IMG/VR virus record: IMGVR_UViG_3300025118_003115
Location: 1 to 21,512 of that record
Direction: 5' to 3' (one strand)
Length of the DNA stretch: 21,512 nt
Origin: a virus
The notes under the pieces were generated by a model, which saw only the letters and a list, made by a program, of their open reading frames with translations, was not told the DNA's origin and made no database searches. Both the position numbers and the translations under genes were made by a program. Below, piece by piece: positions 493-21,512 of this stretch (the first letter of the stretch is position 1; each line of letters begins with the position of its first letter).

Positions 493-662
493 GAAACGGT
501 GGGAGAATTGAAGGTACTGAAGGTGGATTGCGTATAGACGTATTTGACCACGATGAAAACTCTGAGTATGATTTTACAGAAAGTGATTGTAGTGTATGCG
601 AACTTCCAGAGCATGCTCAAAATAATATCATAAGTGACATAGAGTACGAAGAAAATGCCTAA
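420..662 (+). CDS. Small acidic hypothetical protein with CxxC
   Basis: Encodes 80 residues from ATG 420. The first 25 or so overlap the 58-residue gene in another frame; the remainder is strongly acidic (for example VFDHDENSEYDFTESDCSVC), with a Cys pair at residues 57 and 60 and an acidic tail ISDIEYEENA. No family is recognised. The start rests on the AAAGGAG at 405-411. If the 73-base overlap is judged too long, the only in-frame alternative I see is TTG at 528, preceded by GAAGGTGGA at poor spacing. The stop (660-662) overlaps the next gene's ATG at 655 by 8 bases, so this gene is part of the same coupled chain. Confidence 0.55.
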   Translation: MPKASRYIEQNDSLQESIDQKLRVRNGGRIEGTEGGLRIDVFDHDENSEYDFTESDCSVCELPEHAQNNIISDIEYEENA

Positions 663-4718: not shown

Positions 4719-4720
4719 TA

Positions 4721-5791
4721 ATGGGTAAAATGACTCCATTAGAAGTTGTAAAATATATTAAATTTCCAGATAGAAGATTAATATCTGGTTTTTTAACTAT
4801 AAATATGGTTAGTCATTCAGACAATGATGGTTTAGATGATGCAAATCAAGAATATCAAGACGGATGGGGCGGTGGAGACGGAGAATCAGAAACATCACAC
4901 CCATTTTTCAGTACCGAGCCTGATAACCCCGGTAGGAATGGATATAAACATTCATTTGGCGATTATGATTGTTTATTGTTTTGGGTTGCTGGTGGAATGA
5001 CATTACACGCTCCATCTTTTAGCTCGAGAATGTCTCAGGTAGAACTAGAAAGTGGTGGATTTTTAAGTGCAAGTAGTGGACCTGCCACTTGGACAGATGA
5101 CACTGGAAGCCCAAATGATGCTTATGACAGTAATGAACATTGGTTTTTATCAGCAAATGTTGTTCATCCTTGTCAGCATTTTTTAAAATCTCATTTAATA
5201 TCTAGAATTAATAATGGATACGGTCATACAAATACCGATTATTATAAGATACCCGGTATATTAACAAATCAATTTGAATATAATACAAATATTGAGGCTG
5301 ATTGGAATAATAATGTAACTGCAGCTTCAAGTAATGCTATCCCAAGTAATAGAGAAGGTAATAATTATAGATATATTTTAAGTAATGGAGTATTTAGTAA
5401 TGATACTGATGGCGACTATGTTGGTGGTGTAGCAGGAGCATCTGTAGAAGGAAGTTCTGGTGATTTAAGCAATGTATCTAATAATACTTATTTTCCTATG
5501 ATTGAAGGTGTGGAAGTTTATGGGAAACATAAATATACAATTCCTTCACATAAAAATGGGCTTTCTGGTAGTAATTATATATATTCTAATACAAATACTT
5601 CAGTTGGTAATTACGCACATGAAGCAGGGTATTGGAGTATGGTTATTAAAATTAAAATAAGAGCATACCATCCTACTAATACATCTGGTCAAGCAACAAA
5701 AGAATTTTTTAAATCAAGAACCAATGTTATGTTTCAGCCATTTGGGGAAACTGCAAGTTTCGATATAGGCAATTCTCTACACGCATCATAA
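4721..5791 (+). CDS. Unrecognised structural protein, probably tail-associated
   Basis: Encodes 356 residues from an ATG with a good GGAGG (4710-4714) six bases upstream. It begins MGKMTPLEVVKYIKFPDRRL and is rich in Asn, Ser, Gly and Tyr, with a mixed beta-type composition and one apolar stretch FWVAGGMTLHAPSF. There is no signal peptide, transmembrane segment or catalytic motif I can recognise. Position immediately after the tail fibre and before the internal virion proteins suggests a second fibre subunit, adaptor or receptor-binding protein, but this rests on context only. The stop at 5789-5791 overlaps an ATG (TAATG) that opens a 17-codon frame. Confidence 0.6.
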   Translation: MGKMTPLEVVKYIKFPDRRLISGFLTINMVSHSDNDGLDDANQEYQDGWGGGDGESETSHPFFSTEPDNPGRNGYKHSFGDYDCLLFWVAGGMTLHAPSFSSRMSQVELESGGFLSASSGPATWTDDTGSPNDAYDSNEHWFLSANVVHPCQHFLKSHLISRINNGYGHTNTDYYKIPGILTNQFEYNTNIEADWNNNVTAASSNAIPSNREGNNYRYILSNGVFSNDTDGDYVGGVAGASVEGSSGDLSNVSNNTYFPMIEGVEVYGKHKYTIPSHKNGLSGSNYIYSNTNTSVGNYAHEAGYWSMVIKIKIRAYHPTNTSGQATKEFFKSRTNVMFQPFGETASFDIGNSLHAS

Positions 5792-5844
5792 TGCTATTGG
5801 ATAGAAATAATATGTTTGTTAAATTAAATAGTAAAAGTATATAA
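5791..5844 (+). CDS. Possible 17-codon coupled mini-frame
   Basis: The ATG at 5791 shares its A with the preceding TAA and opens MLLDRNNMFVKLNSKSI, ending at TAA 5842-5844, six bases before the next gene's ATG at 5850. It fills most of the only sizeable plus-strand gap (5792-5849). The next gene has no visible ribosome binding site, so translation through this frame could deliver ribosomes to it. It is too short to show coding bias and may be coincidental. Confidence 0.2.
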   Translation: MLLDRNNMFVKLNSKSI

Positions 5845-5849
5845 TCAAT

Positions 5850-6554
5850 ATGGCTAAATCTCTGTTTCAAGCCGGTTTGTCTGCTGGTAGGGCATCTGGT
5901 AAATATCAAGCAAGTTTATATGACATTAGCGACCGATGGGGAGCGATAGATTATGAAACAAAAAAGGCAGCTATGTCTTTAGATGAATTAAATGAAAAAG
6001 TTAAGGTAGCTGCTACTGGATTAGAATTGGCAACTACAGCGTCTGGTATGTATGAAGATAAAAAAACATTAGAAACAGAATATTTGCCAGAACTTGAAAA
6101 GAAAAGATTTCAAAAAGAATATACTGGAGACCTTTCTTTTGAAGAATTTAAAGCACAAAAACCATCAGAATATACACAAAAGTTTGAAGCTCATGAGATT
6201 GAACGAAACATATGGGATAGATTAAAAGGCGATAAGCCAATGTATCAATTTGGAAGTGGAGATGAGGCTACTCAATTTACAAAATCTAAAGTAACAGCTG
6301 CTGGTAAATATGCAAAAGGAATATCTGATTGGGATGAATTGGGATTAGACTCTTCTGATTATTTCGGGTTTCAAGAAAATACGGGCGATATAAGTACATA
6401 TAAAGCTGATTATGGAGATTCTGATTTTAAAACTGGGGCAACGTGGAGCTTATTAGAAGAAGCTGAAAGAAATCAATTTTCAGAATTATATCCAAATGCC
6501 ACATCTGAAGATTTATATGATTGGACAAAAAAATTATGGAGCTCGAATGAGTAA
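5850..6554 (+). CDS. Putative internal virion protein, helical
   Basis: Encodes 234 residues, beginning MAKSLFQAGLSAGRASGKYQ. The N-terminal 25 residues are small-residue-rich; residues 30-110 are predicted helical from their heptad-like Leu/Ala/Glu/Lys pattern. The C-terminal half is more acidic and aromatic. No family is recognised with certainty. It is the first of three helical proteins between the tail genes and the giant polymerase-like gene, a layout typical of internal or ejection proteins in podovirus-like phages. An in-frame stop at 5832-5834 limits how far the start could move; ATG 5850 is the first ATG and lacks a Shine-Dalgarno sequence. The end overlaps the next gene by 8 bases. 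Confidence 0.6.
   Translation: MAKSLFQAGLSAGRASGKYQASLYDISDRWGAIDYETKKAAMSLDELNEKVKVAATGLELATTASGMYEDKKTLETEYLPELEKKRFQKEYTGDLSFEEFKAQKPSEYTQKFEAHEIERNIWDRLKGDKPMYQFGSGDEATQFTKSKVTAAGKYAKGISDWDELGLDSSDYFGFQENTGDISTYKADYGDSDFKTGATWSLLEEAERNQFSELYPNATSEDLYDWTKKLWSSNE
6538..6541 (+). promoter_or_regulatory. Ribosome binding site deciding the 6547 start
   Basis: GGAG (within TATGGAGC) lies five bases before ATG 6547. A longer in-frame extension begins at ATG 6496, but that would overlap the previous gene by 59 bases, whereas 6547 gives the compact ATGAGTAA overlap usual here. The start at 6547 is therefore preferred. Confidence 0.7.
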
Positions 6555-7278
6555 TTCAATAGCAAAAAATCATTTATCTTCTTTAGCCCAAAAAGGGAGA
6601 CATGGAGATGATAGAATACTGCAATTCTCCGATGGAAGAGTTGAACATGGTAACGCTTTTGAAGAAAAACTAATGGGTGAAGCACTTGGAGAATCTCTTG
6701 TTGATGCTATTGGTTCTAAAACAATTAATCCAGAAACTGGGTTAAGAGAAAATTGGGTATTTGAAACGCTTACTCTTTTATTAGGAGCTGGGTCTTCATA
6801 TGCTTCTGGAGCTCTTGGAGAGGATGCAGCTAAAGTAAGATTAGATGAAGCTACTGCTGGAAAAGAAGATGTTGAAAAGTCTCAAATGGAATTAACAAAA
6901 GCATACGAAGCTCAAAGAAATTTAATTAATCAAAAATATGCTTCTGATATGGAACAAATCACTGAAAGCAAAGGTCAAATAACTGAATCTTTTGTGAAAG
7001 CATCTGGTCGGCAAGATTTTTCAAAAGCTTCTGGCGATTTAGAACTTCAAAAAACTCAAGCTCAAGAAACTTTAGAAAGAAAATCAGAAGGCATGCTTGG
7101 AGAAGCTGGAAGAACTTTAGGTGATATAGCTTCAAATTATGAACAATCTAGAGCAAAGCTAAGAGCAGAAAAAGAAAGGTTTGAAAGAGAAATAAGTTTA
7201 TCTCAACAAGCATCTGATAAATGGTACTTAGGTAAAAATATTAGAGGATGGGGGGACCCAGATAAATTCTGGAGTTAA
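6547..7278 (+). CDS. Putative internal / tail-associated virion protein with coiled coil
   Basis: Encodes 243 residues from ATG 6547. Near the N-terminus it has LAQKGRHGDDRILQF followed by an acidic segment; a 'GRxGDxxLxH…' block of this kind recurs in phage virion proteins, usually near an end of the chain. Residues 60-95 are apolar and Gly/Ala-rich (ETLTLLLGAGSSYASGALG), perhaps a weak membrane-interacting helix. Residues 95-225 are highly charged and heptad-like (for example LRAEKERFEREISLSQQ), indicating a long coiled coil. The C-terminus is aromatic (GWGDPDKFWS). Operon position and helical nature suggest an internal core or ejected protein. Minor tail protein is the main alternative. 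Confidence 0.6.
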   Translation: MSNSIAKNHLSSLAQKGRHGDDRILQFSDGRVEHGNAFEEKLMGEALGESLVDAIGSKTINPETGLRENWVFETLTLLLGAGSSYASGALGEDAAKVRLDEATAGKEDVEKSQMELTKAYEAQRNLINQKYASDMEQITESKGQITESFVKASGRQDFSKASGDLELQKTQAQETLERKSEGMLGEAGRTLGDIASNYEQSRAKLRAEKERFEREISLSQQASDKWYLGKNIRGWGDPDKFWS

Positions 7279-7280
7279 TT

Positions 7281-8525
7281 ATGGCAGCTGAAGTATTACA
7301 ATCAATAAATAGAATATTACAATATAATCAACAACGTGACCAACTTAAAGTTCAAGAAGCTCTTGGATTTATGGAAATGGCTCAAAGCAAAAGATTTAAA
7401 GAACTTGAACTCCAATTAAAAAGCGATGAAATGTCAGCTTCTGAAAGATATAGAGAAGCCCAAGTGCAATTAGAAAAAGATAAACTTGGAGTAAGTACTT
7501 GGCAAGCAAAACAAACTGAAGAAAGATTGGATGAAGAACAACAAATAAGAAAAGACAGAGAAGTTAGATTAGGGAAGGCTGAAGGAAGAGCATTGGAAGT
7601 GGAAAACAGAGCTGCTGAAACGTTTAAGAGAGCAAAATTTGAAGATTCTTTAAAATATTTAAAACAAGAACAACTTGAAAATTCAGCTCAAGTAGCCACT
7701 ACATTTGTAGATAAATTTGGATTTCAAGAAGCTTCTGTAATGGCCCAACAAGAAGGTGCCTCTGTTGATGAGATAAATACAAATGTAAATATTGCATTGT
7801 CTAAATCAGCTCCAAGGCTTTCTAAAAAAGAAAGGCAATTCTTAGCATCTGAAATATCTGGAAGTTTATGGGCAGCTGGCCAATTACAAACTAATCAACC
7901 TTTAGTCGATTTGCTTGATGTTTACCATGATTCTCTTGACAAAAAATCAAGAGGTGAAAAATTAGCAACTGGTGAAAAAAGAATATATGAAGCTTTGGCA
8001 CATTTTACGAATATAAATGATTTAACTTCTTTATCTCAAATTGCAAATAAACATAAAATAGTAAATCTAGCTATAGATAGAGAAGAAGAAGAATACAGAT
8101 TGCGAGGAGATATGGAACTTCCAGAACAAAAAGGAGACATGGAACCTGCCCTTGGCCCAATAGACCCAGAAGTAAAAAAGAAAAGAATTGAGACGGCTTT
8201 ACTAAGCATTGGAGACTTGACAAATCTTAAAGAAAAAACAATTCTTAATCTAGATGAGTCTGAATTGAATAGGCAAAAATTAATGACTGCAAACGAGCAG
8301 AGATATATGATACAACAAGCAATTCAAAAAGCTGAAAGAGTACCAGAAGACCAAAGAACCGTTGAAGAAAATGAATTACTATTAAATAAAGATGCTTTCT
8401 TAGAAGAAGCTGATTCAGCTGTAGACAGTCTTGCGGCTTCTCTTGAATTAATTGAAGATGAATTAAATAACAATTATTTTGATGCTTCATTAAATGCTTA
8501 TGGAAGTGATTTCTTAACTTTCTAA
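7281..8525 (+). CDS. Putative internal virion protein with long coiled coil
   Basis: Encodes 414 residues; GGAG at 7271-7274 is six bases before ATG 7281. The first 150 residues are almost entirely charged heptad repeats (for example FKELELQLKSDEMSASERYR), predicting an extended coiled coil. The middle holds amphipathic helices, and the last 100 residues are again acidic and helical, ending NAYGSDFLTF. No enzymatic motif, signal peptide or transmembrane segment is seen. Position directly before the giant polymerase-like gene, with only four bases between them, suggests a structural or ejection-channel partner packaged with it. A tape-measure role is less likely because it lacks the length and hydrophobic helices usual for that family. 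Confidence 0.6.
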   Translation: MAAEVLQSINRILQYNQQRDQLKVQEALGFMEMAQSKRFKELELQLKSDEMSASERYREAQVQLEKDKLGVSTWQAKQTEERLDEEQQIRKDREVRLGKAEGRALEVENRAAETFKRAKFEDSLKYLKQEQLENSAQVATTFVDKFGFQEASVMAQQEGASVDEINTNVNIALSKSAPRLSKKERQFLASEISGSLWAAGQLQTNQPLVDLLDVYHDSLDKKSRGEKLATGEKRIYEALAHFTNINDLTSLSQIANKHKIVNLAIDREEEEYRLRGDMELPEQKGDMEPALGPIDPEVKKKRIETALLSIGDLTNLKEKTILNLDESELNRQKLMTANEQRYMIQQAIQKAERVPEDQRTVEENELLLNKDAFLEEADSAVDSLAASLELIEDELNNNYFDASLNAYGSDFLTF

Positions 8526-8529
8526 ATAA

Positions 8530-11500
8530 ATGTCTTTAACAAAAACTCAAAAATCCTTATATGATAAAATAGCATCAGGCTCTCAGCTTCAATCTGAAAC
8601 TGACTTTGATTTTTCACCAGAAAGAAAACCCTTATCTGATGATACATTTTCTACTCCAGACCTTCAATCATTTGCAGAATCTCAGCAACAACAAATAATA
8701 GGCGAAAATAAAGTATCTGCTTGGAATGCTTTAGGAGCATTTGCTTATCAAGCTGTAGATACTGGAAGCATCGGACTTGCTGGTGTTTTAGCTGATTTAA
8801 TAGCTCCCGGTACTGAAGAATATATAAAAGAAGAGGTTCTTGACTTAGAAGCCCCAGAAGCTAGACTTGCTGGAATGGCAGGTTCTGTTCTTGGATACGT
8901 TCAAGGAGCTCCTTTAAAATTAGCTAGGGGAGTAGCTGGGAAAACTATATTACCATTTGTTGCTAAAGGATTTGGAAAGTCATCTGAATCTGCTGTACTA
9001 AAAGAATTTACAAAAGCTGGTAAAAAAGCTGGAATAGATAAAAAGACAATAAATCTACTTAAGAAAGATATTAGTGGGACTATTGCAAGAAACGCTAATA
9101 ATGCTGAATTAACAGCTAAGACATTTAGAAAAAGTCTATCTAGAGAAGTAGACCTACAAATAAAAGCTTTACGAGCAACTGGTAAATTAAAAAGTGCCGA
9201 AGCTAAAGCTCTTAGGGATATGACAAAGAAAGTTGCAGAAAAAGGTGTACCAGTTCAAGATATGTTGCAATTAGGTAAGCAAATATATGGCAATACAGCT
9301 AGGGGAAGGATTCTTGGGCAAGCATTAAACGATGTATTTGTATTTAGTTTTATTGACGCAGCTATGGAAGGAGTTTATCAAGGCAAAGAAATATGGAGAG
9401 GTAAACAACAAGAATTTAATTGGGCTAATTTTTCTATTGCAGTTGGAGCAGGTGCTCTTACTGGGGTAGGATTATCCTCTATTGAATACTTAAAGCCTTT
9501 AGGCAAGATAGCAGATAGTAGGCGTGATTTTCTTGATGGAATGAAATCTATTTTTAGAAGAAATCCATATAAAAATATGAGTCGTAAAGAATTAGCTGAA
9601 AGATTAAGATTTATGGGTGAAATGAGGTCTAGAAATGGAAAATCTACTGAAGTTGTAATTGGTGGGAAAACATATGACTTATTAAGACATCCACATGATG
9701 CAAAAATGGGAGCAAAAACCCTTAGAGAAGAGATTCAAAATGATTTTAAAGGTGGATATAAGTCCAAAGTAGTTGGTTATTTAAATAAAGAAAAAAATCA
9801 ATTTGGTAGAGACCTTATGAAATGGGCTACTAAAGAATCTTGGAATAGCACAGTTAAAGCATTACCTAGAATGTTTTTAGGTGGAGCAGTATTCAATGCG
9901 GCTCATTGGGCTCAAATGAATCTTATGGGAGCTCAGTATGGAGTTGATTGGGATAATTATGATTTATTAGGCAATATGATGATTGGAGCATATACCCAAA
10001 GAAAAGCTAATCCTGAAAAATGGGATTTAGGAAAAGATATTAATAAAGTAAGGGACGGTTTAAGGACATTGGGATTTGATGTAAAGAACTTTCATTACTC
10101 ATCAAGTTTTGATTCACCTAATAATAGATTTGGAAATGCTTTAGTAAGAGACAATGCTGAATTAAAAGATTATCTAATTGAAAATAGATTTGCAAGTGAT
10201 GATGATTCTGGTATAAATAACGATGCTCTTCCAGAAGGTGAAATGTCTGTGCAGGCTGCTATGGCTCAGCGAGAAACATTTCCAATGCTTCCAAAGATAC
10301 TTAAAATGGTTAATGAAACATTTAATTATTCAAAAGGATTGGATGAAATAGGAGCTACTGAGGCTAGGAGATTAATAGAAAATTTTAAAAAATTAACAGA
10401 AATAGAAACGGTTAATGATTTTGAAGAGAAATACAATCAAGAAATAATGGACAATACGGCTTCTTTTGAAGCGCAATTAACATCCATAGTTGGTAATTTT
10501 GTAAATAAATCATTTCCAGACCTTGCTACTAAATTAACAACTCGTTCATTGAACAATGAACCAGATACATATATTGTACCTCATATAATAACAATAAGCA
10601 AAGAGCTTAAAGAAAAGGCAAGAAATGGAGAATTAGATTATTTAGGTGATTTATCTGGAGCTGAAGCAGTTAAAGAACTACAGAATATGCTTGATAGTTA
10701 TGAAATGATTCAAAGAGGAAGTGTTGTTCTTGGTGATTCTGCATTTAATCAAGCCGAGAAACAAGCAACGATTAGGAATGAAGAAACATTATCTTATTTG
10801 TATAATTCAATAAGGTCATCAGAAAAATCTGTAAATGAATTATTTAAACAAAAAGATAGTATATCAAGAGAATTTAGATATTCTGATTATGGTGATTACC
10901 TACCATCTGTAATGGCTAACAAAGCATTATCAACATCTAAAAGTGTTATTAATATATTTTCGGAAGATTATATAAAGAAAGATGAAGTTTCAACATCATT
11001 AATAGACGCAGGTCTTTTGACTGAAGATGGAAAACTAATAGAAGGTGTAGAAAAGATTGATTTAGATGGGTTTACCGATGCAGATAAGGCCGACATTAGA
11101 AGAAAGTTGCAAAAAGTATTAGCTATACAAACTGCTGTTGGTGGATACGAGGTATCTAAATCAAGTACAAAAACAACTCCAGATGATGTTGTAGCATTAG
11201 AAGAATTTTTAAAAGTTGAAGGTTTTGATTTAAATAAGACAGGGGACTGGTTCCATCAAAAAGTTATTCAAGTAATTAATACAGATAAATGGAAGAATAC
11301 AAATATACAACCATCCGAAGCTGAATTTGTAATGACGCAAACAAATGGTACATATGGAAAAGCTGAATTTAATGTAAAGACTGGTAAAAATAATTTCATA
11401 TTAAGAAAAATAACAAGTCCAGAGGACCCAACATTTGCAGCTAAATATAATAGATTCATTGAAACAATTGCAGATAAATCAAAAGGTTTAATTCTTGTAG

Positions 11501-14500
11501 AAGATTCATATATCAATATACATAGTAAAGAAGCTGCTCAATTGGATTTAATAATTAGAAATGCTCAATCAAATAGAAATACAAATGAAGAAAATATAGT
11601 CCTTTCAGAATTGTTTGAAGCTATGGAAAACAATGGATTAACAAATGTTAGAAGTAAAATGCATAGTTTTATCCAACAATATGGTCAGCAAGCACAAATA
11701 CAGATAATGACTTGGTTGCATAATGCTGGTATTATTACAACAAATAAAAATTATGATTTAAAAATTGATGCTGAAAAAGTTGCTTATGATTATTTTGAAA
11801 AGGTAGATAATATATTAAGCAGAAGAGGGTATGATGATAATTATGTTGATAGAGAATATGAAAGACAAGCAAATCTTTCAAAGGGTAGATTTGTGGGAGA
11901 TGCTGAGGATGTTGTAAAAAATCCTTCAATATCCATGCAACAATTATTTAGTAAATATCTTTTCCTAGAGCCTGAAATGCGTTCACCTTTTTCAGATGAT
12001 TATGTTCCTATATATCAAAGTTATAAAGACCATGGAGCCGAAGCTCAAAAAGAAATATTTGATACTTTAGTTAAGGATGACTTTGACCCAATCACAGAAG
12101 ACCAATATTTTAGAGCAGATGCTATTAAAATATTAATGAATAGAGCTGCTATTGAAAGAAACAATGAAATAATACCGTTAAAAGATTTAGGAATAAGAAA
12201 ACGAAAAGAAATTGTTGAAGATATAACTCAGATTTTATTTGCAAGAAGGAATATAGTTACTGGTAAGGAAATGAGAATCCATAGCGACGGTCTTAGGGTG
12301 GAAGATAAACCTTATTATATGCAAAAAAATGAGATTACAAATCTTTTTAAGGAAATGGATGTTGAACTTATTATTTTTAATACAGAAGTATTAGCAAGGG
12401 GATTTAATCCATTCACTAATAAACATGAAACAAGGTTGTATAATCTTGATGATTCTTCTCAAAACATACCAAAATGGTTGCAAAAAGCAATAAGAGCTCA
12501 AGAAGCAAAAGTTAGAAAGCAACTTGGTAGTTACGGATTTGATTCTCTTGGTAATTTAAAAAGCATACAAAGAGTCGAAGACTTAGACGATAGAATTGCT
12601 GAAGGTTTTCCAGGCGCATATTCTGTCCCAGATACAGGTTTATTAAAAATGAGAATGTATAATGGAATGGACAGTATTATAGTAAAAGCATCTGATAGAG
12701 CTAAAATTGCTGATACATTTATGTCTTTTTATGAAAAGCATGTTACTCCAGAAAATATAACAAATAAAAATCATAAAAAGATTTTAGATGATTTAAATGC
12801 TGAATTTACAAAAGCATCTAAGGATGAAACTCCTTCAAGCAATGAGAATTACGAACTAGCTCTTAGGTATCTTGTTCTTGAAAAAATGGTTGGAAGTAAT
12901 ACTAATAAAAAATTATATGATACAATAAATGAATCTGATACTGAGAAAGTAGCTAAAATATTAAAAAGAGCAAAGTTGGTCAACACAAAGAATTTTGTAA
13001 GGCCAAGTAAAGAATATTTATACTCTGTCATAACTGCTAGAAGACAAATTGATAAGAAAGATAAAGCATCTGAAGAATTATTAAAAAGAATGAAGAAAGA
13101 TGCATATACTGTTTCTATATGGAATGATGAAGGAAGTGCTTTACTTAGAAGCGAAATGAAAGATGTTATAAAAAATTATCAAGAAAAATATCCCCAAATA
13201 AGAAATTGGTCTTTTAGAAATGTTATGGGGAACGCACATAAAAAAGCAACTGCATTTGATAGTATATCTTTTATATCAAAAGAAATGATGGTGGAGTCTC
13301 ATGCAATTATGGGACATAATCCAAATTCAAAAAATCCTATTAAACCTGTTATATCTTCTAGTGGAAAAGGTAAAGAACTTTTATTGGGTAAAACATTATT
13401 TGTTTATGAACCAAAGTTAGATGAGTTTTTTAGAAACAATGAAATAGATGTTCTTCTTACTAAAAGTGGAGCTAAGGTATTTGAAGAAGTGTCTTCAGAT
13501 GTTGATAAAATTGATACAAGTATATTAAATAATACAAAATGGAATGATTTGCCAAATGTTTCTTTAAATGCAGCTCAAAAAAGAAATATATCCTTAGAAT
13601 CAATAGGATTTAAACCTGAAAAAGACGCATCTGTAACAACTGCAAAAGAATCACCTTCTGATGCAAATTTATTTGATAATGCAGAATCGGGTTTAAAACT
13701 TGCTGAAATGCAAGGGGACCTAGATTTTGCTTTAGGACAAATGAGAAAAATATTAACAAACCCAATTTCAATGAGACAATTTATGATAGATGAGATTGGT
13801 GATGGTGAACTACCTACTGATAATTCATCAATGAGCATATCCACTATTAATAATATGTTATTTTATTTAACGCATCCAGATGCTAATCCAATGAGCTATA
13901 GCGATAGAATGGTAAAGAATAAATTGTATTCTGCTTTTATTAACAACATTATGAACAATACAAGGAGTTTTACCAATAGGACTGATGATAATGGACAGAA
14001 TAAAAGATATGGAGGGCAATCTCCCTTAATACAAAGTTTAAGTGCCTTTAATGATAATGAATCTTCTAGGTTGCTACCTACATTAGTTGATGAAAGAGGT
14101 AATTTATTGATGAGAGGTGAAATTGCTTTACCTTATCACGAAAGAAAATCAACATTGGATAAACTTGAAGGTCGAGGAGTCCGTATTGTAGATAACGAAA
14201 AAGTATTTACTGTTGATGAATTTATCAATGATTATATATCAAAAATAGATGACGATATTCCACAAAAAGAATTACAAAGATTTAGAGATGTTCTTTCAAA
14301 GTCATCACTTGAAGATGTGTTTAATATTTTAAAAGAAGCTGGGAATGAAGTTGATTCTAAATATCAACTTGGTATTATATCAAGAAGAAACCCAAGAACA
14401 AGACCTAATGATATTACATTACTTGGATTAGCTGGATTTTTAGATGAGGGATATGGTAATTCTGCTATGGTAAATAGTATGGATATTGTGAATGTCTATG

Positions 14501-17124
14501 AAGGTGATTACGATGCTGATAAAATAGATTACTTTTTTGCTCACAATGATTATTTCTTTGACCATATAAAAAGGTCTCAATCATTCTTTGTTCAAGCAAT
14601 AGACCCATCAAATCTACAAATGAAAGGTAATTTCCATTTTGGATTAACAGCTGATAAATCAGCAGAAACAATTGAAAAAATGGTTGGCGATTCAAGGTCT
14701 TATATGAAAGCTATTGGGATAGTTCAAAAAACTCCTAGAGAATTAAATTATTTAGACAATCTTTCAAATAAGAATTTCTTATCTACAAATAAATCGGCTA
14801 TGGAAGATTTTATAAGAGAAGATGGCCAAGGAAATGTTGATGGACCTGGTGTATTATTTAAAAATGCAAAACGTGAATTAATAACTATTGATTATAGAAG
14901 TTTAGATTTCTTTATGAGAAGCGCTCTTGAAATGCAATACATCGTTGATGGTGATGGACAACTTAATCCTGAAATTGCTGGTGATATTTTTTCTTGGAAA
15001 GATGATTTCTTGTTTCCAGAAATATTAAAATCAATAGCCCCAAATGAATTTACTACTAGAGATGCTAAAGAAGTTGTTGATAACAAAGGAGCTAATAATG
15101 ATGGTAAAAGAGCTAGAATATTTCAAAAATTAACTTATGACAAAGCATCTAAAAAATATAGAGAATCTGATTTAGACCTTACAAATGCTGAAAAAGCAAT
15201 TATAAAAGAAATGATTTCTGAGTACAGCGCATTGCTTCAAGTAACTGGGAAAGAACATTATGCTGATACTGGTGAAGGTCAACGTGTAGATTTTGATTCT
15301 TTTATTAATCAAGCAAATACATTTATAGGATTCAATAAGAATTTAGAGTCTGGAGTTTGGAAAAATCTTACATCTAAAAGAGCTTTAAGAGGGAAAGATT
15401 ATGAAGAATTAAAAGACATATTTGGGTTTGATTACAACAAGAAAAAGAAAAGAGTTGAGTTTAAAAATGATTTATTTGAATATATAAGAGGTCAAGGCGA
15501 GAATATATCAAAGGGTGAAAGTGGTTCTTATATAGATAGAATGGTTGTGAATATTGCAAAATCAGATTTATTTAAAAACGAAGATAGAGCAATTTTAGAT
15601 GAAACAATGGATGCAGTAGATGATTGGTATGTTGAAATGATGTCAAATTCAAATGTAAAAGATTCTGATGCATTTGGGGATGACCTTGTTAAACAAGTAT
15701 TGCAAGTAAATAAAAAGATTGGGACAGTTAAATATCTTGATAAAAAAATAAGGCAGATATGGAACAGCAATGCTGGATATGGTTGGAAAAATGAAAAAAT
15801 AAAAAGAATAAAGTACGTTATAGAAAAATTAAAAGGTGAAATTCGTGATAATTATGGTCAATATGTTCCATTTAAAAATCAAGACCTAACAAAGATTGAA
15901 TTTGTGAATCTTGAGAATGACCCAGATTTAAAATATGCTACTGTTTATTTCAACACAATCAATTCATTGTTAAAAACAGAAATTATAGGAGCTTCTAGAT
16001 ATGATGATTTTAAAAGTTCTCTTGATGATAAAGGTAGACTAGATTTAAAAAGATTAAAAAAATTAAGAAGTGGTATATATGGAGACACTTCACTCATAAA
16101 AGAGATAGCTGAATATGGAGATAAATCAATTCTTACAAAAAGAGATATTGAAATATTGAATAGTTACAATGCTGATGATTTTTATGAATGGCAAATGAAA
16201 TACATCAATAGCAAAGTAAATGAACATGGCATGGAATTTTTAATGGCATTTATGGAACCATCAAGAGATAAGAAAAAAGTTGGAGTGTATAAAAATAGGG
16301 CCGTATCAATCCCATATGTAGATGTTAATAGATATAAACTAGGTATTAGATTTTTAACTGATTTAGTTCATGGTAGAAGAAAAACGCATGATGATTTAAT
16401 TGATGTAGGTGTATATGATGAAGCTCAAGTTCAGAAAATAAAAGAGAATGCTCCAATATTGCTTAATATATTAAGAAGTACCGAAGGTCATTATACTAAG
16501 TTCTTTAGAGGTGACCATATGATGAGAAGAGAAAGCGAAGTAAATCGTGAAAGATATGGACTTGCAAGCTTTGACCCTTATTTAGAAAGACAAATAAAGA
16601 GTTATGAAGAGTTTTCTTGGATGAGAAATAATATGCCATACAATACGACATCAATAGTAAATAACTCTGTTCTTGATTTTTATAAGAATATGTATCAATC
16701 TTTAGGAAAAGGTCAGGAATTTGATAAATTTTTAACTGAATTAGACAATATTAGTGTGGAACTATCATCAAATACATTGACAAATCCATATAAATACATG
16801 GGAATGAGATTACAATTAGATGCTGATTTTCAAAAGTTTATAAGTAGTGGTATTGATTTTATGCAAAGCGGAGAGCATGGAACTGATAATATAGTAAAGA
16901 TAACAGAGCATCCAGCATTTAAATTGTCAAGAGGATTCAAATTTATGGAAGCAAAAGCTGGTGAAGAGGGATTAACTCTTGAAAAATCTTCTAAAGTTAT
17001 TTTAGATAGAATTAGGCAATTGTCTGTTCTTGATGCTAACTTAATTAAATCTAAAGAAAATTTAATGGTAAGAGAAACTAGTCAAGAATTATTTAATGAA
17101 ATGAAACAAGGTTTGGATTGCTAA
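8530..17124 (+). CDS. Giant single-chain two-barrel RNA polymerase-like virion protein
   Basis: Encodes 2864 residues, 40% of the window. The N-terminal part has Gly/Ala-rich apolar segments at about 114-149, 268-277, 298-317 and 446-460, which may insert in membranes. The polymerase landmarks are DSISFIS (1577-1583), a first-barrel block GKTLFVYEP…IDVLLTKSGAKV (1620-1650, Lys1649), GGQSPLIQ (1828-1835), GEIALP (1863-1868), RRNPRTR (1952-1958) and GDYDADK (1992-1998). The last two align with RAPTLHR and NADFDGD of bacterial RNA polymerase beta', about 40 residues apart in both. KAIGIV (2060-2065) follows. The order and the 344-residue gap between Lys1649 and Asp1993 fit single-chain two-barrel polymerases (crAss-like virion polymerase, YonO, QDE-1). 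Context suggests it is packaged and injected for early transcription. The catalytic Gly is replaced by Ala. ATG 8530 follows an in-frame TAA and has no Shine-Dalgarno. Confidence 0.8.
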   Translation: MSLTKTQKSLYDKIASGSQLQSETDFDFSPERKPLSDDTFSTPDLQSFAESQQQQIIGENKVSAWNALGAFAYQAVDTGSIGLAGVLADLIAPGTEEYIKEEVLDLEAPEARLAGMAGSVLGYVQGAPLKLARGVAGKTILPFVAKGFGKSSESAVLKEFTKAGKKAGIDKKTINLLKKDISGTIARNANNAELTAKTFRKSLSREVDLQIKALRATGKLKSAEAKALRDMTKKVAEKGVPVQDMLQLGKQIYGNTARGRILGQALNDVFVFSFIDAAMEGVYQGKEIWRGKQQEFNWANFSIAVGAGALTGVGLSSIEYLKPLGKIADSRRDFLDGMKSIFRRNPYKNMSRKELAERLRFMGEMRSRNGKSTEVVIGGKTYDLLRHPHDAKMGAKTLREEIQNDFKGGYKSKVVGYLNKEKNQFGRDLMKWATKESWNSTVKALPRMFLGGAVFNAAHWAQMNLMGAQYGVDWDNYDLLGNMMIGAYTQRKANPEKWDLGKDINKVRDGLRTLGFDVKNFHYSSSFDSPNNRFGNALVRDNAELKDYLIENRFASDDDSGINNDALPEGEMSVQAAMAQRETFPMLPKILKMVNETFNYSKGLDEIGATEARRLIENFKKLTEIETVNDFEEKYNQEIMDNTASFEAQLTSIVGNFVNKSFPDLATKLTTRSLNNEPDTYIVPHIITISKELKEKARNGELDYLGDLSGAEAVKELQNMLDSYEMIQRGSVVLGDSAFNQAEKQATIRNEETLSYLYNSIRSSEKSVNELFKQKDSISREFRYSDYGDYLPSVMANKALSTSKSVINIFSEDYIKKDEVSTSLIDAGLLTEDGKLIEGVEKIDLDGFTDADKADIRRKLQKVLAIQTAVGGYEVSKSSTKTTPDDVVALEEFLKVEGFDLNKTGDWFHQKVIQVINTDKWKNTNIQPSEAEFVMTQTNGTYGKAEFNVKTGKNNFILRKITSPEDPTFAAKYNRFIETIADKSKGLILVEDSYINIHSKEAAQLDLIIRNAQSNRNTNEENIVLSELFEAMENNGLTNVRSKMHSFIQQYGQQAQIQIMTWLHNAGIITTNKNYDLKIDAEKVAYDYFEKVDNILSRRGYDDNYVDREYERQANLSKGRFVGDAEDVVKNPSISMQQLFSKYLFLEPEMRSPFSDDYVPIYQSYKDHGAEAQKEIFDTLVKDDFDPITEDQYFRADAIKILMNRAAIERNNEIIPLKDLGIRKRKEIVEDITQILFARRNIVTGKEMRIHSDGLRVEDKPYYMQKNEITNLFKEMDVELIIFNTEVLARGFNPFTNKHETRLYNLDDSSQNIPKWLQKAIRAQEAKVRKQLGSYGFDSLGNLKSIQRVEDLDDRIAEGFPGAYSVPDTGLLKMRMYNGMDSIIVKASDRAKIADTFMSFYEKHVTPENITNKNHKKILDDLNAEFTKASKDETPSSNENYELALRYLVLEKMVGSNTNKKLYDTINESDTEKVAKILKRAKLVNTKNFVRPSKEYLYSVITARRQIDKKDKASEELLKRMKKDAYTVSIWNDEGSALLRSEMKDVIKNYQEKYPQIRNWSFRNVMGNAHKKATAFDSISFISKEMMVESHAIMGHNPNSKNPIKPVISSSGKGKELLLGKTLFVYEPKLDEFFRNNEIDVLLTKSGAKVFEEVSSDVDKIDTSILNNTKWNDLPNVSLNAAQKRNISLESIGFKPEKDASVTTAKESPSDANLFDNAESGLKLAEMQGDLDFALGQMRKILTNPISMRQFMIDEIGDGELPTDNSSMSISTINNMLFYLTHPDANPMSYSDRMVKNKLYSAFINNIMNNTRSFTNRTDDNGQNKRYGGQSPLIQSLSAFNDNESSRLLPTLVDERGNLLMRGEIALPYHERKSTLDKLEGRGVRIVDNEKVFTVDEFINDYISKIDDDIPQKELQRFRDVLSKSSLEDVFNILKEAGNEVDSKYQLGIISRRNPRTRPNDITLLGLAGFLDEGYGNSAMVNSMDIVNVYEGDYDADKIDYFFAHNDYFFDHIKRSQSFFVQAIDPSNLQMKGNFHFGLTADKSAETIEKMVGDSRSYMKAIGIVQKTPRELNYLDNLSNKNFLSTNKSAMEDFIREDGQGNVDGPGVLFKNAKRELITIDYRSLDFFMRSALEMQYIVDGDGQLNPEIAGDIFSWKDDFLFPEILKSIAPNEFTTRDAKEVVDNKGANNDGKRARIFQKLTYDKASKKYRESDLDLTNAEKAIIKEMISEYSALLQVTGKEHYADTGEGQRVDFDSFINQANTFIGFNKNLESGVWKNLTSKRALRGKDYEELKDIFGFDYNKKKKRVEFKNDLFEYIRGQGENISKGESGSYIDRMVVNIAKSDLFKNEDRAILDETMDAVDDWYVEMMSNSNVKDSDAFGDDLVKQVLQVNKKIGTVKYLDKKIRQIWNSNAGYGWKNEKIKRIKYVIEKLKGEIRDNYGQYVPFKNQDLTKIEFVNLENDPDLKYATVYFNTINSLLKTEIIGASRYDDFKSSLDDKGRLDLKRLKKLRSGIYGDTSLIKEIAEYGDKSILTKRDIEILNSYNADDFYEWQMKYINSKVNEHGMEFLMAFMEPSRDKKKVGVYKNRAVSIPYVDVNRYKLGIRFLTDLVHGRRKTHDDLIDVGVYDEAQVQKIKENAPILLNILRSTEGHYTKFFRGDHMMRRESEVNRERYGLASFDPYLERQIKSYEEFSWMRNNMPYNTTSIVNNSVLDFYKNMYQSLGKGQEFDKFLTELDNISVELSSNTLTNPYKYMGMRLQLDADFQKFISSGIDFMQSGEHGTDNIVKITEHPAFKLSRGFKFMEAKAGEEGLTLEKSSKVILDRIRQLSVLDANLIKSKENLMVRETSQELFNEMKQGLDC
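13342..13482 (+). other. Predicted first double-psi beta-barrel of the giant protein
   Basis: Residues 1605-1651. A strand pattern KPVISSSGKGKELLLGKT leads to LFVYEPKLDEFF and then IDVLLTKSGAKVF. Related large phage proteins carry, from memory, an 'IDxxxFxSAxKxG' block here; Lys1649 is the candidate for one of the barrel lysines that contact the nucleotide in two-barrel polymerases. Structure prediction would test this directly. Confidence 0.6.
14506..14520 (+). other. DxDxD catalytic triad (second barrel) of the polymerase-like protein
   Basis: Codes for Asp1993-Tyr-Asp1995-Ala-Asp1997 in the context VYEGDYDADKIDYFF. Aligned with NADFDGDQM of cellular RNA polymerase beta' all three metal-binding aspartates are kept; the usual Gly is Ala. 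About 40 residues upstream lies an arginine-rich block (1952-1958) in the position of the RAPTLHR segment, which supports true homology over chance. Confidence 0.75.
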
Positions 17125-19935
17125 ATGGCTAAAGCTGTCGATTGTAATAGATTAAAAAAGGGAAAATCCCTTTTAAGCGCTGTCGAATATTGGGCTAACG
17201 ATAAAGAAACCCTTAAACATATTAAAGACCCTTACGAAGCTGCTATGAGATTGTTTGAGAGGGACTTTTATGTTCCAATGGAATTTGCTATATATGATGA
17301 TAACAATTCTGGATTCTTAACTAATGGTAGAATACAAATGTTCACAAAAGAGTTGTATAAATTAAATGATAGAATACAATCTGGAGATATTTCATTAAAA
17401 AGTTTTTGGTCTGGTTCTGCCTTAGGGAAGAAAGACCCAGCGGTTGGATATACAATAGGTGCTTTGCAAAAGGTATCTAATTCTGATAGAAAAAGAACAT
17501 TAGAAACAGAAAGGAAAGTAAACGACATTATTGAATCATTAAAAATTGCAGGTGGAATTGACGGTGTATGGTCAAAGGCAAAGTTTGAACAAGCAAAAAA
17601 ACAATATAGAAAACTTGATTTAGATTTAATAAAAGCATTAGACAAGGCAGATAATGTAGCAATATCAGCTGCTAGAAAAGCAATATCTGAGTTTACTACA
17701 AAATCACCTTTAAAAATATTTGATGATTTTATAAGTATTATTGAAAATAAAATGCCAATAGCCATTAAAGAAAAGTATGACAGAGAAGTTAGTCTATCAA
17801 AAGATGAATCATTAATTCCAAAGCAAAGAAAACTACACGCAAATAATGTAAAGAAATATGACGAAGGTAAATTAATCATATTAAAAGATTCTGATTACCA
17901 AAGATTCTTTCAAAAAGAAGGTCTTGATAGAAATACAATAGATGCTGTTATAAAATATAATTCATTAATGTATGAAATGTATGGTACTTTAAAATCTGGT
18001 ATCGAAAAAAGAATTAATACTGTTATAGCTCAAGTGCAAAGAAATAAAGGAGCTAAAAGCAAGACTGAAGGCGAACTTATAAAATTAAGAAAAAAACTTA
18101 TATCTGATATTATGCCTTCATATAAAGAAGATGGTTATTTCCCTCATTACATAAGAGATTTAAATGCTTCTTATATGGATGGATTGATGCCTCATTTTGC
18201 AAAATTTGATGAAGCTTCTGATGACTTTAAAAATAAAAAAAAGAAAGATATTGATGGTGTTATAGCTGATATAAACAAATGGATTACAGATCATGCAAAA
18301 TCCAGAAATAGAAAAGAAAAATTAGCATATTCACGAAACTTTATTGATGTTGTAAAAGGATATGTTGATGATGTAAATAGATTTAATACAACAGCATTTA
18401 TGGATGAAGTATTAGTAAATGCTCGTAATAAAGTTCACGATATTTATAGAAATGGCGAAGATTCCAATTATGCAAAAAATGTTTCTGATTTAATAATCGA
18501 CCTACATGAAGCTGCTAATGGTAATAGTAAACTTGGTGAGAATGGGCAAGCAATAATGAGGTCATTGTTAGCATTTGAGTTTACTTCAAAAATTGGTATC
18601 AATCCTCGTTCAGCTGTTAGAAATGCTACTCAAAGGTTGTTGGATTTTGTCCAATTTGGAAGACGCATATCTAAAGTTGCTAATCGGGAACTTGAACAAA
18701 AAGGATTATTTGGGGATGATGTGGAGTCTCAAATTGAAAATATATTAAAAGAAGCTGGATTGTTATTTGAAGATACTACACCAGAACTTTTAGAAAGTAC
18801 AGTTAAAACATCTCCATCATTGTATAAACTTAGAACTATTGATGAAAATGGTAAAATAACATATAATAAAGAATCTTCTTTATCAAAATTTTCTGGGAGG
18901 ACATCTAAGATAGCAGGTTACGCATCTGTACTTCATAGAAAGGTAGAAAACAGCAACAGAAAGCATACTTTTAAGATTGCCTTTGGGCAAATGCACAACC
19001 TTTTAAGAACAAGTACAGCCTATCAAGCAAAGATGGCCGAGAAGTATGAAAAATTGTCTGATACTGAACGTGAGTCTAAAATAAAAGTTGGTATGGAGAA
19101 AATTGCTTCTAACTATGCAAAGAACATGGTCATAGCAAATCATTTTGATTATGGTGATTATGCAAAAGCAAAGTTTATGAGGGGAGGTCCAAAGAATATT
19201 GGAAGGTTCATGTTTCAATTTCAACATTATGGAATGGAATTTCTTGAAAAGAATATTAGTATAGCTAAAGAAGCTGGTGGGGATTGGTCTTCATTTAGAA
19301 AAGATAAAGACTTCAGTTTTAAAGACGCTGAAGGTATGCACAAAGCAACGAGAATGGCTATTGCATACTTTATGGCTCCAGTTGCATTAGCAGCTATATT
19401 GGGAACAAATTTTGATAACCTTGTTCAACATGACACTTGGGATAGATTAAAGCAATGGGCCACTTTGTTTACTGGTGATGAAGAAGAAGTTAAAAAAGCA
19501 TTTTATGGCAAAGGAGCTCTTATATCAACATTTGGAGGACCACTATTAAGTGATGCTATTGATATTGGAATCGGACTTGACCTAATAAATGCTGATTTTG
19601 AAGGATTGACCGATATGTTGATTGGGGTAGATGCATACACAAACGATACTAATTTATCTGACACTGGTAGAAAAATAAAGATACTTAATACTTTTTCCCA
19701 AAGAGCAACTGATAGACATATTCCTATGTTAATGAAAGGTCATATTGGTATGGCAGCTCAACAAGAATTGGGAATTTATCCAAGAAAAGAAGATGATAAT
19801 ATATGGAAGAAAGTTGTACCAGAAGTTTTTGAATCAAAAAAGAAAAAAGCAATCAAGGGTAAAAGAAACCTTCCTTTTGCAGTTTACCAAAGTTTGAAAA
19901 GAATGGAATCTGAATTACAATCTAAAGGCAGGTAG
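17125..19935 (+). CDS. PLxRFG-type large internal virion protein
   Basis: Encodes 936 residues; its ATG directly follows the previous TAA (17122-17124). Residues 1-460 are charged and helical. Residues 488-503 (SKIGINPRSAVRNATQ) match a block like 'lGxNxxSALxNxTQ' typical of the C-terminal parts of large phage polyvalent proteins. Residues 689-699 (PKNIGRFMFQF) resemble the PLxRFG signature region of the same proteins. One hydrophobic helix at about 744-761 (MAIAYFMAPVALAAILGT) looks transmembrane, and the C-terminus is Lys-rich. In relatives these blocks often sit in the same chain as the preceding giant protein, so the pair may be a split polyvalent protein. A role in ejection or membrane passage is inferred; no catalytic motif is seen. 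Confidence 0.7.
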   Translation: MAKAVDCNRLKKGKSLLSAVEYWANDKETLKHIKDPYEAAMRLFERDFYVPMEFAIYDDNNSGFLTNGRIQMFTKELYKLNDRIQSGDISLKSFWSGSALGKKDPAVGYTIGALQKVSNSDRKRTLETERKVNDIIESLKIAGGIDGVWSKAKFEQAKKQYRKLDLDLIKALDKADNVAISAARKAISEFTTKSPLKIFDDFISIIENKMPIAIKEKYDREVSLSKDESLIPKQRKLHANNVKKYDEGKLIILKDSDYQRFFQKEGLDRNTIDAVIKYNSLMYEMYGTLKSGIEKRINTVIAQVQRNKGAKSKTEGELIKLRKKLISDIMPSYKEDGYFPHYIRDLNASYMDGLMPHFAKFDEASDDFKNKKKKDIDGVIADINKWITDHAKSRNRKEKLAYSRNFIDVVKGYVDDVNRFNTTAFMDEVLVNARNKVHDIYRNGEDSNYAKNVSDLIIDLHEAANGNSKLGENGQAIMRSLLAFEFTSKIGINPRSAVRNATQRLLDFVQFGRRISKVANRELEQKGLFGDDVESQIENILKEAGLLFEDTTPELLESTVKTSPSLYKLRTIDENGKITYNKESSLSKFSGRTSKIAGYASVLHRKVENSNRKHTFKIAFGQMHNLLRTSTAYQAKMAEKYEKLSDTERESKIKVGMEKIASNYAKNMVIANHFDYGDYAKAKFMRGGPKNIGRFMFQFQHYGMEFLEKNISIAKEAGGDWSSFRKDKDFSFKDAEGMHKATRMAIAYFMAPVALAAILGTNFDNLVQHDTWDRLKQWATLFTGDEEEVKKAFYGKGALISTFGGPLLSDAIDIGIGLDLINADFEGLTDMLIGVDAYTNDTNLSDTGRKIKILNTFSQRATDRHIPMLMKGHIGMAAQQELGIYPRKEDDNIWKKVVPEVFESKKKKAIKGKRNLPFAVYQSLKRMESELQSKGR
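18289..18292 (+). other. Only GATC tetranucleotide noticed in the window
   Basis: This site lies in the codons GAT CAT (Asp-His) of the PLxRFG-type gene. Reading the whole window by eye I found no other GATC, whereas elsewhere Asp before a C-initial codon is written GAC. It is the single exception to that rule that I saw. Confidence 0.85.
19189..19221 (+). other. PLxRFG-like motif
   Basis: Encodes residues 689-699, PKNIGRFMFQF, followed by QHYGMEF. The spacing differs from the literal PLxRFG (here PxxxGRF), but the GRFxFQF core followed by an aromatic helix and a downstream hydrophobic helix is the expected arrangement. Confidence 0.55.
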
Positions 19936-19978: not shown

Positions 19979-20159
19979 CTGTAAATCTGTCTTCTTTCTC
20001 CATAATAAGCAACGTTTCTAATTGATGAGTTGTTTCTTTTAATTTATTTAAAAGTTCTACAATAAAATCTATATCGTATTTTTTAGCTGCTAATTTGATT
20101 GACCCATTGACATTATTTAATGTATTAAGGTAAATTTTAATATTATCCTTATTTTCCAT
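19974..20159 (-). CDS. 61-residue hypothetical protein
   Basis: The product begins MENKDNIKIYLNTLNNVNGS and is predicted almost wholly helical and amphipathic, with a Leu-rich heptad-like stretch VELLNKLKETTHQLETLLIM that could dimerise. No family is recognised. The start is well supported: AAAAGGAG (plus-strand CTCCTTTT at 20167-20174) lies seven bases upstream, and the ATG overlaps the stop of the RuvC-like gene by 11 bases, consistent with coupling. It is the last gene of the leftward replication operon and ends just before the convergent hairpin. A small accessory or regulatory protein is possible but unproven. Confidence 0.65.
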   Translation of the reverse strand: MENKDNIKIYLNTLNNVNGSIKLAAKKYDIDFIVELLNKLKETTHQLETLLIMEKEDRFTA

Positions 20160-20664
20160 TTTCTATCTCCTTTTCTGCGTACACTCCGTACATTGTTATT
20201 AAAATTGAATCTGCGTTCCATAGAGTAGTCTTCTGGTCGATGTCAATATAATTAGAGGCTATCTCTTTAAGTTTATTCTTTCTGTCTTTCTTTTCTTTTG
20301 GAAGTTTAATACCTAACTTCGTTTCCCACCATCTCATCCATTTTTGTGGTGAAACTTCTATTGTTTGAATACTTTTAGCGTCTAGTATTCCCAACCAAAT
20401 TCCATAGTTTACTCCAAATTTAAACAAAGAACTTCTCCCATCATGGGGCATTGCATGGACTTTTTCTATGTATGCTACTATTTCTTTAAACTCACCTCTA
20501 TTATATGCTGATTTTGCCATAGTACATATAATAGTTCTACCATGTATTAATTTATGGCATTTATATGGAGTTATTCCGTTCTTCTTTCTTATTTTATCAT
20601 TTGTTGTTGTGAAACTAATAGCCCCATTAGCACCGGGGTCTATACCTATTACTGTCTTATTCAT
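20149..20664 (-). CDS. RuvC-like Holliday junction resolvase
   Basis: Encodes 171 residues with an RNase H-like resolvase pattern: strand 1 TVIGIDPGANGAISF (Asp9), strand 4 EIVAYIEKVHAMP (Glu67), a conserved helix SSLFKFGVNYGIWLGIL (79-95), VSPQKWMRWW (104-113), and the C-terminal helix LWNADSILITMYG (Asp152). These are the landmarks of phage RuvC-type crossover junction endonucleases, which cut branched DNA before packaging. The usual second C-terminal acidic residue, three positions before the last Asp, is Trp149 here. AGGAGAG (plus-strand 20672-20678) precedes ATG 20664, and the ATG overlaps the upstream gene's TGA (ATGA). It sits in a replication operon with a DnaB-like helicase. Confidence 0.82.
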   Translation of the reverse strand: MNKTVIGIDPGANGAISFTTTNDKIRKKNGITPYKCHKLIHGRTIICTMAKSAYNRGEFKEIVAYIEKVHAMPHDGRSSLFKFGVNYGIWLGILDAKSIQTIEVSPQKWMRWWETKLGIKLPKEKKDRKNKLKEIASNYIDIDQKTTLWNADSILITMYGVYAEKEIENGK

Positions 20665-20960
20665 TGTGCATCTCTCCTATATGAATAGTTATGTGCGCTT
20701 TTAACGTACTTTTTCTTATATTGATTTCTCTTTTTGACTGGTGGTTCATATTTAGTTCCAATGGTCTCTCCATCAAAAACTTTTACCACATGGTCTACTA
20801 GTTCCGATTCCAACTTTCCCAGACTATCGTTTTCGTATTTATCGCAACCTTTGTTTATTATGTCTATTGGTATTTTTTTGGGGGTGCTATTAACTTTGAG
20901 TTTGAACCAATAACAAACCTTTTCATTTTCGTAATAACACCCCAAGCAACTTTTATGCAA
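20661..20960 (-). CDS. Small four-cysteine protein, possible zinc site
   Basis: Encodes 99 residues. The N-terminal part carries Cys5, Cys8, Cys16 and Cys39 (SCLGCYYENEKVCYWF … IINKGCDKY). A spaced CxxC…CxWF…GC pattern of this kind is common in short phage proteins and suggests a metal site, but no function is known to me. The C-terminal part is basic (KKRNQYKKKYVKSAHNYSYR). The start is TTG at 20960, not ATG: AAAAGGA lies five bases upstream and the next upstream in-frame stop leaves no ATG or GTG option. It overlaps the helicase gene's stop by 8 bases and the resolvase ATG by 4. Confidence 0.65.
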   Translation of the reverse strand: MHKSCLGCYYENEKVCYWFKLKVNSTPKKIPIDIINKGCDKYENDSLGKLESELVDHVVKVFDGETIGTKYEPPVKKRNQYKKKYVKSAHNYSYRRDAQ

Positions 20961-21512
20961 TATTGTCCTTTTCTGCCATTGTAGAGTTCATGTAGAATTT
21001 GCATCTTCCTCCATTGAATCCAACTAAATGAGTTCCAATCTTTCCGTATCTACTTTTAGCAACTATTATCTCACTCTTATATGGGTTAAACTTTTCACTG
21101 TCAAAGTTATGTCCATAGAATACAAACATAGCAGATTCAGCAGTTTGTTCAATTACACCTGACTCTGCATAATCACTCATGCGTGGTCGGGGGTCCAATC
21201 TCTTTTCTATTTCCCTATTTAATTGTGATACTAATATTGATGAACAGTTCTCTTGCTTACATATCCATTTGTATTCTTGCATGATTCTTTCTATCTCGAA
21301 CCTTCTTCCTTCTTTAACACCATCCACTTGTATGAGCTGAATATAGTCATCAATCACTACATCTGGTTTATGTTTGGCAATCTCTCTAAGACAATCATCT
21401 AGACCTCTTACATTGTCATACATAATGAACTCTCCGTATGTACCTTTTATCTTTTCAGATACGGCTTCAAACTCCACCTTATTGTTCTCAGATAGGTCAT
21501 TTCGTCTTATAT
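20953..21512 (-). CDS. DnaB-like replicative helicase, C-terminal part (cut by window edge)
   Basis: The frame stays open to the window end (it begins …IRRNDLSENNK), so the 5' part is missing; an internal GTG at 21477 is not the true start. The visible C-terminal RecA-like half shows Walker B VVIDDYIQLI (VVIDDY at 21343-21360), then ILVSQLNREIEKR, DPRPRMSDYAESGVIEQTAE and MFVFYG. These match the DnaB series SQLNRxVExR…RPxxSDLRESGxIEQDAD…FLYR. The protein is a hexameric superfamily 4 helicase that unwinds DNA at the phage fork. Walker A and any primase or N-terminal domain lie outside the window, so a DnaB-type or primase-helicase arrangement cannot be distinguished. The stop overlaps the next gene by 8 bases. 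Confidence 0.85.
   Translation of the reverse strand, partial: IRRNDLSENNKVEFEAVSEKIKGTYGEFIMYDNVRGLDDCLREIAKHKPDVVIDDYIQLIQVDGVKEGRRFEIERIMQEYKWICKQENCSSILVSQLNREIEKRLDPRPRMSDYAESGVIEQTAESAMFVFYGHNFDSEKFNPYKSEIIVAKSRYGKIGTHLVGFNGGRCKFYMNSTMAEKDNIA
20966..20972 (-). promoter_or_regulatory. Ribosome binding site supporting a TTG start
   Basis: On the minus strand AAAAGGA is followed by CAATA and then TTG at 20960. The spacing is five bases, and no ATG or GTG is available in that frame before the upstream stop, so it decides the start of the four-cysteine gene. Confidence 0.55.

Follow-up and report, generated by a model that had tools for sequence, protein, structure and literature searches.

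Evidence for a single-chain two-barrel RNA polymerase, probably virion-borne, in a phage lineage outside Crassvirales, and for a possible disulfide link to its neighbour

The RNA polymerase of the crAss-like phage phi14:2 (gp66; gp077 in KC821624; PDB 6VR4) carries both barrels in a single chain, with a D-x-x motif, a lysine, RxP and DxDxD along it; it is encoded beside other giant virion proteins, and its C-terminal cysteine faces the N-terminal cysteine of the next protein. The polymerase described here is like gp66 in each of these respects, down to the order and spacing of the motifs. It differs from gp66 in length (2864 versus 2180 residues), in having no similarity at the blast level, in having neither an N-terminal cysteine nor a cysteine-tagged upstream partner, and in that its N-terminal half and its partner protein have no detectable homology to the crAss ones. 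The phage lineage also differs from phi14:2: its genome is smaller, and its capsid, portal and terminase are not of the crAss kind.

Other known polymerases share part of this picture. QDE-1 and RDR2, eukaryotic RNA-silencing polymerases, have the same single-chain two-barrel fold and were our next-best structural matches, but they are cellular RNA/DNA-dependent enzymes of about 1000 residues. Two-barrel RNA polymerases have been divided into a cellular clade and a clade comprising the phage single-chain enzymes and the RNA-silencing polymerases (PMC10770324). Gp96 of Thermus phage P23-45, a virion polymerase fused to the tail tape, is a giant virion protein with a two-barrel polymerase part and no internal cysteines (PMC10770324); there, however, the polymerase is the N terminus of the tape-measure protein of a long-tailed phage and lacks a terminal cysteine, and gp96 was absent among the best 50 PDB matches listed for our model. 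The N4 (Schitoviridae) vRNAP is likewise a giant, cysteine-avoiding polymerase injected by a podovirus, but its fold is T7-like and single-subunit rather than two-barrel (PMC12633501) and it has no terminal cysteine.

The window, by which we mean the whole stretch of viral DNA that was analysed, is a virus record of 21,512 bases with 31.7% G+C. A sequence-only reading had picked out six motifs in the product of one very long gene, and all six lie at the residues it gave, within a single uninterrupted frame of 2864 codons. The features referred to below are as follows.

655 to 8525, plus strand: upstream genes of the same late module (900, 453, 356, 234, 260 and 414 aa)
8530 to 17124, plus strand: predicted single-chain two-barrel RNA polymerase and predicted virion cargo, 2864 aa, one open frame, with about 90 relatives, a structural model and a fold search
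12607 to 16179, plus strand: residues 1360-2550, the region modelled with AlphaFold2 (50 sequences; pLDDT 82.2, pTM 0.78)
13258 to 13278, plus strand: DSISFIS (residues 1577-1583), of which D1577 aligns with the conserved D962 (DAQ) of crAss-like polymerases
13342 to 13395, plus strand: K1605 P1606 to G1620 K1621 T1622, in the lysine-bearing (beta-like) barrel
13465 to 13479, plus strand: SGAKV (residues 1646-1650), which includes K1649, invariant in 50 of 50 relatives
14011 to 14133, plus strand: GGQ (residues 1828-1830) to GEIALP (residues 1863-1868), a conserved stretch between the signature motifs of the two barrels
14383 to 14403, plus strand: RRNPRTR (residues 1952-1958), counterpart of crAss RIPT and bacterial RAPTLHR
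14506 to 14520, plus strand: D1993-Y-D1995-A-D1997, predicted metal-binding aspartate triad of the beta-prime-like barrel, within GDYDADK (residues 1992-1998 of the polymerase)
17119 to 17121, plus strand: Cys2864, the sole cysteine and last residue of the polymerase
17125 to 19935, plus strand: downstream partner, 936 aa, of no recognised family, with Cys7 as its single cysteine
17143 to 17145, plus strand: Cys7 of the downstream protein, invariant, the proposed disulfide partner of Cys2864

When the polymerase itself was the query, a scan returned one contig only, 96% identical. A scan of genome contigs found no relative. Use of the 936-aa downstream protein as query gave 25 viral contigs, most of which encode a homologous protein of about 2.9 kaa directly upstream of the 936-aa homologue, and a search with a core alignment of the polymerase gave 79 loci, bringing the relatives to about 90 in total. 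Conservation was assessed in an alignment of 50 non-redundant, near-full-length relatives whose core identity to the window protein is 22-46%. Invariant positions are D1577, S1578, K1605, P1606, K1621, T1622, D1640 and K1649, and further along P1955, T1957, N1960, D1961, E1991, G1992, D1993, Y1994, D1995 and D1997; G1620, R1953, R1958 and P1959 are at least 98% conserved. Scored in 50-residue blocks along its whole length, the protein is best conserved at 1601-1650 and 1951-2000. Thus the motifs are not chance occurrences, since the catalytic residues are retained across these relatives: the DxDxD of the beta-prime-like barrel (D1993/D1995/D1997, 50/50; DYDAD at 1993 is the sole DxDxD in the protein) and the three lysines of the preceding beta-like barrel (K1605, K1621 and K1649). 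The order and spacing that had been read as those of two-barrel polymerases also stood, with 40 residues from R1953 to D1993 compared with 39 in phi14:2 (R1322 to D1361). Some of the polymerases have an extra insertion of roughly 100-120 residues between GEIALP and RRNPRTR, ahead of the PRTRPND motif, which may be an inserted domain or intein-like.

Neither single proteins nor profiles found a significant sequence match for the polymerase in Pfam, PHROGs or the PDB, and weak matches to BRCT, DcrB and caspase-7 were rejected as chance. The single gp66 sequence compared with the window polymerase likewise gave nothing, and tblastn gave no crAss match. A profile of 13 crAss-like polymerases, compared by hhalign with the family profile of the window polymerase, matched with a probability of 90.6 (E 1.3e-6, score 70.9); none of 60 column shuffles scored above 26.9, and the reversed profile scored 18.1. 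With insert columns kept, the probability drops to 7.8 (E 0.0044) and the alignment is reduced to the RxP-DxDxD segment. The full alignment runs in register from the lysine barrel to the aspartate barrel, pairing D1577 with D962, K1605 with K1012, K1649 with K1065, R1953 with R1322, and the two aspartate triads with each other; K1621 falls one column off crAss K1027. The crAss counterparts of the aligned residues are conserved in 12-13 of the 13 polymerases (K1065 in 13/13; the lysines opposite K1605 and K1649 are invariant), so that the motifs first picked out from the sequence are mostly those that crAss polymerases conserve. No significant homology was found between residues 1-1350 and the crAss upstream or N-terminal regions, or between the 936-aa partner and its crAss equivalent.

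An AlphaFold2 model of residues 1360-2550, built with the relatives, had a mean pLDDT of 82.2 and a pTM of 0.78. Its best PDB match was 6vr4, the phi14:2 virion polymerase (E 2.0e-6, probability 1.00), followed by RDR2 (2.9e-4 and 8.1e-4), QDE-1 (3.9e-3) and then Pol I and the AR9 and phiKZ nvRNAPs; the leading matches are all two-barrel RNA polymerases. Measured against entire PDB chains, TM-scores stay low (0.28 of the query), as it is the core of a large chain that matches and not the whole chain. In a viral structure library the top two matches were proteins without a name (TM 0.67), probably members of the same polymerase family, and many crAss-like polymerases appeared further down. By structural ranking the family would fall in the clade of phage single-chain and RNA-silencing polymerases; the similarity is too low for a tree. 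Taken together, the invariant catalytic residues, the model matches and the in-register alignment of both barrels bear out the proposal of a single-chain two-barrel RNA polymerase, and we are highly confident that the 2864 residues form, in one polypeptide, a DNA-dependent RNA polymerase belonging to the two-double-psi-barrel superfamily. Judged from the model, its nearest solved relative is the virion-packaged polymerase of crAss-like phages.

The polymerase gene stands at the end of a structural module of late portal, capsid and tail genes, in which the 453-aa upstream protein matches a baseplate-type PHROG. The partner gene directly follows it in all 71 loci that have both, and no fused polymerase-partner frame was seen among 80 partner loci. 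Contigs of the relatives reach 54-56 kb. One of them, 56,030 bases long and with a 123-bp direct terminal repeat, probably represents a whole genome of these phages. The relatives carry a P22-type portal (phrog_156) with two weak matches only among known phages, an SU10-type major capsid protein (SU10_MCP), a phrog_38 terminase and a DnaB helicase; phi14:2, for comparison, has Crass_capsid, phrog_6547, phrog_6681 and the crAss muzzle (crAss_MUZ). The relatives did not show the Crassvirales hallmarks (crassvirus MCP, portal, TerL and muzzle), and no muzzle was found. By these hallmark genes they appear to be podoviruses that do not belong to Crassvirales. Neither the polymerase nor a divergent member of its family matched any of 50,697 phage records by tblastn; this, with the hallmark genes, agrees with the earlier suggestion of a lineage distinct from those described. 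Judging by sample numbers, we take the IMG/VR sources of these phages to be mainly marine. By eye, the converging genes at 20149-21512 of the window (minus strand) make up the replication arm, with a RuvC-like protein of 171 aa and the C-terminal portion of a DnaB-type helicase. One relative also encodes a radical SAM protein resembling spore photoproduct lyase (L136:12670-13533), possibly for repair of UV damage. No 12-mers shared as early promoters were found in five genomes, and a search of 16 relatives for a T7-like polymerase gave no match, with the control giving none anywhere either.

The cysteine content of these proteins is unusual. Of the 143,851 residues in the 50 polymerases, 51 are cysteine (0.035%, versus 0.66% in other proteins of five of these genomes), and a cysteine lies within the last 12 residues in 49/49 complete non-redundant polymerases, with none near the start. 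The downstream protein has a near-start cysteine in 74/74 full-length cases and none further in, and the polymerase has its C-terminal cysteine in 71/71 loci with both genes. For a random cysteine the chance of landing in these end zones is about 0.4% and 1.6%, respectively; the sequences are related, and no combined probability is given.

The same arrangement is found in crAss-like phages. In 14 genomes we counted 19 separate junctions, i.e. those at which the upstream protein, the polymerase and the downstream protein are separately encoded, and 37/38 termini have the C-terminal or N-terminal cysteine, the exception being crAss002 gp33 (first cysteine at residue 35). In phi14:2 the only cysteine of the upstream gp078 is its last residue, the polymerase has Cys3 and a penultimate cysteine, and Cys3 is the sole cysteine of the downstream gp076; crAss001, DAC15 and Dulem virus 41 have the same cysteine ends plus 0-3 further internal cysteines. 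Fusions follow suit: (i) where polymerase and downstream protein are fused, in p-crAss, Rudgehvirus and cr8_1, the cysteines at the upstream C terminus and the polymerase N terminus are kept, and the fusion has none at its C-terminal end; (ii) in cr1_1, cr50_1 and Fpv1, where the upstream protein is fused to the polymerase, the N-terminal end has none and the pair formed by the C-terminal cysteine and the downstream N-terminal cysteine is kept; and (iii) the outer ends of the chains, fused proteins included, never carried a terminal cysteine in the crAss-like genomes examined. For three of the 14 genomes, one of them recoded with many in-frame stops under table 11, the cysteine ends were predicted before the sequences were read, and all predictions held. 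Under table 11 the giant cargo genes of cr109_1 show about 70 in-frame stops, in line with a recoded crAss-like phage, and they keep the terminal cysteines. In cr126_1 a gene chosen as a control seems to encode the C terminus of the upstream protein, cysteine included. An artefact of overlapping genes was rejected, as cysteine positions and gene spacing vary and the genes of crAss001 gp47 and DAC15 gp078, both upstream proteins that keep the C-terminal cysteine, lie on the opposite strand. The rule appears to span crAss-like phages and the lineage of the window, which are unrelated by hallmark genes.

The crAss001 virion is documented to have disulfides that join tail proteins. Mass spectrometry detected its cargo proteins gp47, gp49 and gp50, but they were not resolved in the structure; the 2023 crassvirus atlas leaves the ordering of cargo to packing and interactions (PMC10172136). 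The word cysteine is absent from the main texts of that paper (PMC10172136) and of the N4 vRNAP preprint (PMC12633501); the phi14:2 structure paper may hold prior notice.

We considered several other explanations for the polymerase. It is most improbable that the protein is an inactive or repurposed two-barrel protein, serving in structure or ejection with a relic polymerase fold: its size and the roughly 1350 N-terminal residues without a known match would suit such a role, but the (near-)invariance of the Asp triad, the lysines and PRTRPND in 50 diverse sequences is unexpected for a relic. It is just as hard to maintain that the phage belongs to Crassvirales and encodes a crAss polymerase of the usual kind. 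The polymerase core is indeed closest to crAss gp66, but the MCP is SU10_MCP and not Crass_capsid, the portal and TerL belong to other PHROGs, tblastn and the muzzle search drew blanks, and the probably complete relative is about 56 kb compared with about 90-103 kb for the crAss-like records compared. A polymerase made in the cell, used late and left unpackaged would have parallels in the two-barrel non-virion polymerases of P23-45 and of jumbo phages (PMC10770324). We consider it unlikely here, given a gene placed with tail-type genes in the structural module and outside the replication arm, a nearest solved relative that is a virion protein, and an extreme cysteine depletion in common with ejected polymerases. 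On gene context and the crAss-like precedent, packaging in the virion appears to us strongly favored, and a role in transcribing early genes probable, if somewhat less so.

More weight must be given to the possibility that the terminal cysteines do not link polymerase and partner and instead serve homodimers, metal, a portal or membrane anchor, or a modification (e.g. acylation), internal cysteines having been lost solely because of the need to unfold in the tail. Other ejected polymerases do show cysteine avoidance alone (none in the 3500 aa of N4 vRNAP or the 5002 aa of P23-45 gp96). This explanation sits less well with the location of the cysteines at mutually facing ends (upstream C terminus, both polymerase termini, downstream N terminus) and never at outer ends, with their absence from the outer ends of fused polypeptides, and with their retention in crAss001 and DAC15 even though the upstream gene is on the opposite strand. 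We therefore regard it as a serious but second choice. A disulfide chain joining the cargo proteins seems to us, from the placement of the cysteines, the better supported of the two. Cysteines that face each other at separate junctions and are absent at fused outer ends fit a disulfide doing the job of a peptide bond, and avoidance of internal cysteines fits unfolding through the tail.

Our working model is that the podovirus head would package the polymerase together with its 936-residue partner, and that both would be injected before or with the DNA. Cys2864 of the polymerase and Cys7 of the partner would form a reducible tail-to-head disulfide, holding the cargo proteins in one ordered string until the reducing cytoplasm is reached. 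As phage assembly takes place in a reducing cytoplasm, this disulfide would have to form late. Once in the cytoplasm the polymerase would refold and carry out the earliest transcription of phage genes. It would rely for this on the metal site D1993/D1995/D1997 and on the lysines that the first barrel carries. More generally, we lean towards the possibility that the giant proteins of podoviruses with crAss-type virion polymerases are injected as a daisy chain held together by disulfides, in which internal cysteines have largely been stripped and one is placed at each neighbour-facing end, such that the proteins would exit in order and be released by cytoplasmic reduction, with some crAss-like fusions swapping the disulfide for a peptide bond.

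These phages extend two-barrel RNA polymerases, probably carried in the virion, to a widespread lineage outside Crassvirales, and packaging of a two-barrel enzyme would therefore not be a crAss peculiarity. The terminal-cysteine rule bears on how several megadaltons of cargo get ordered and threaded through a narrow tail.
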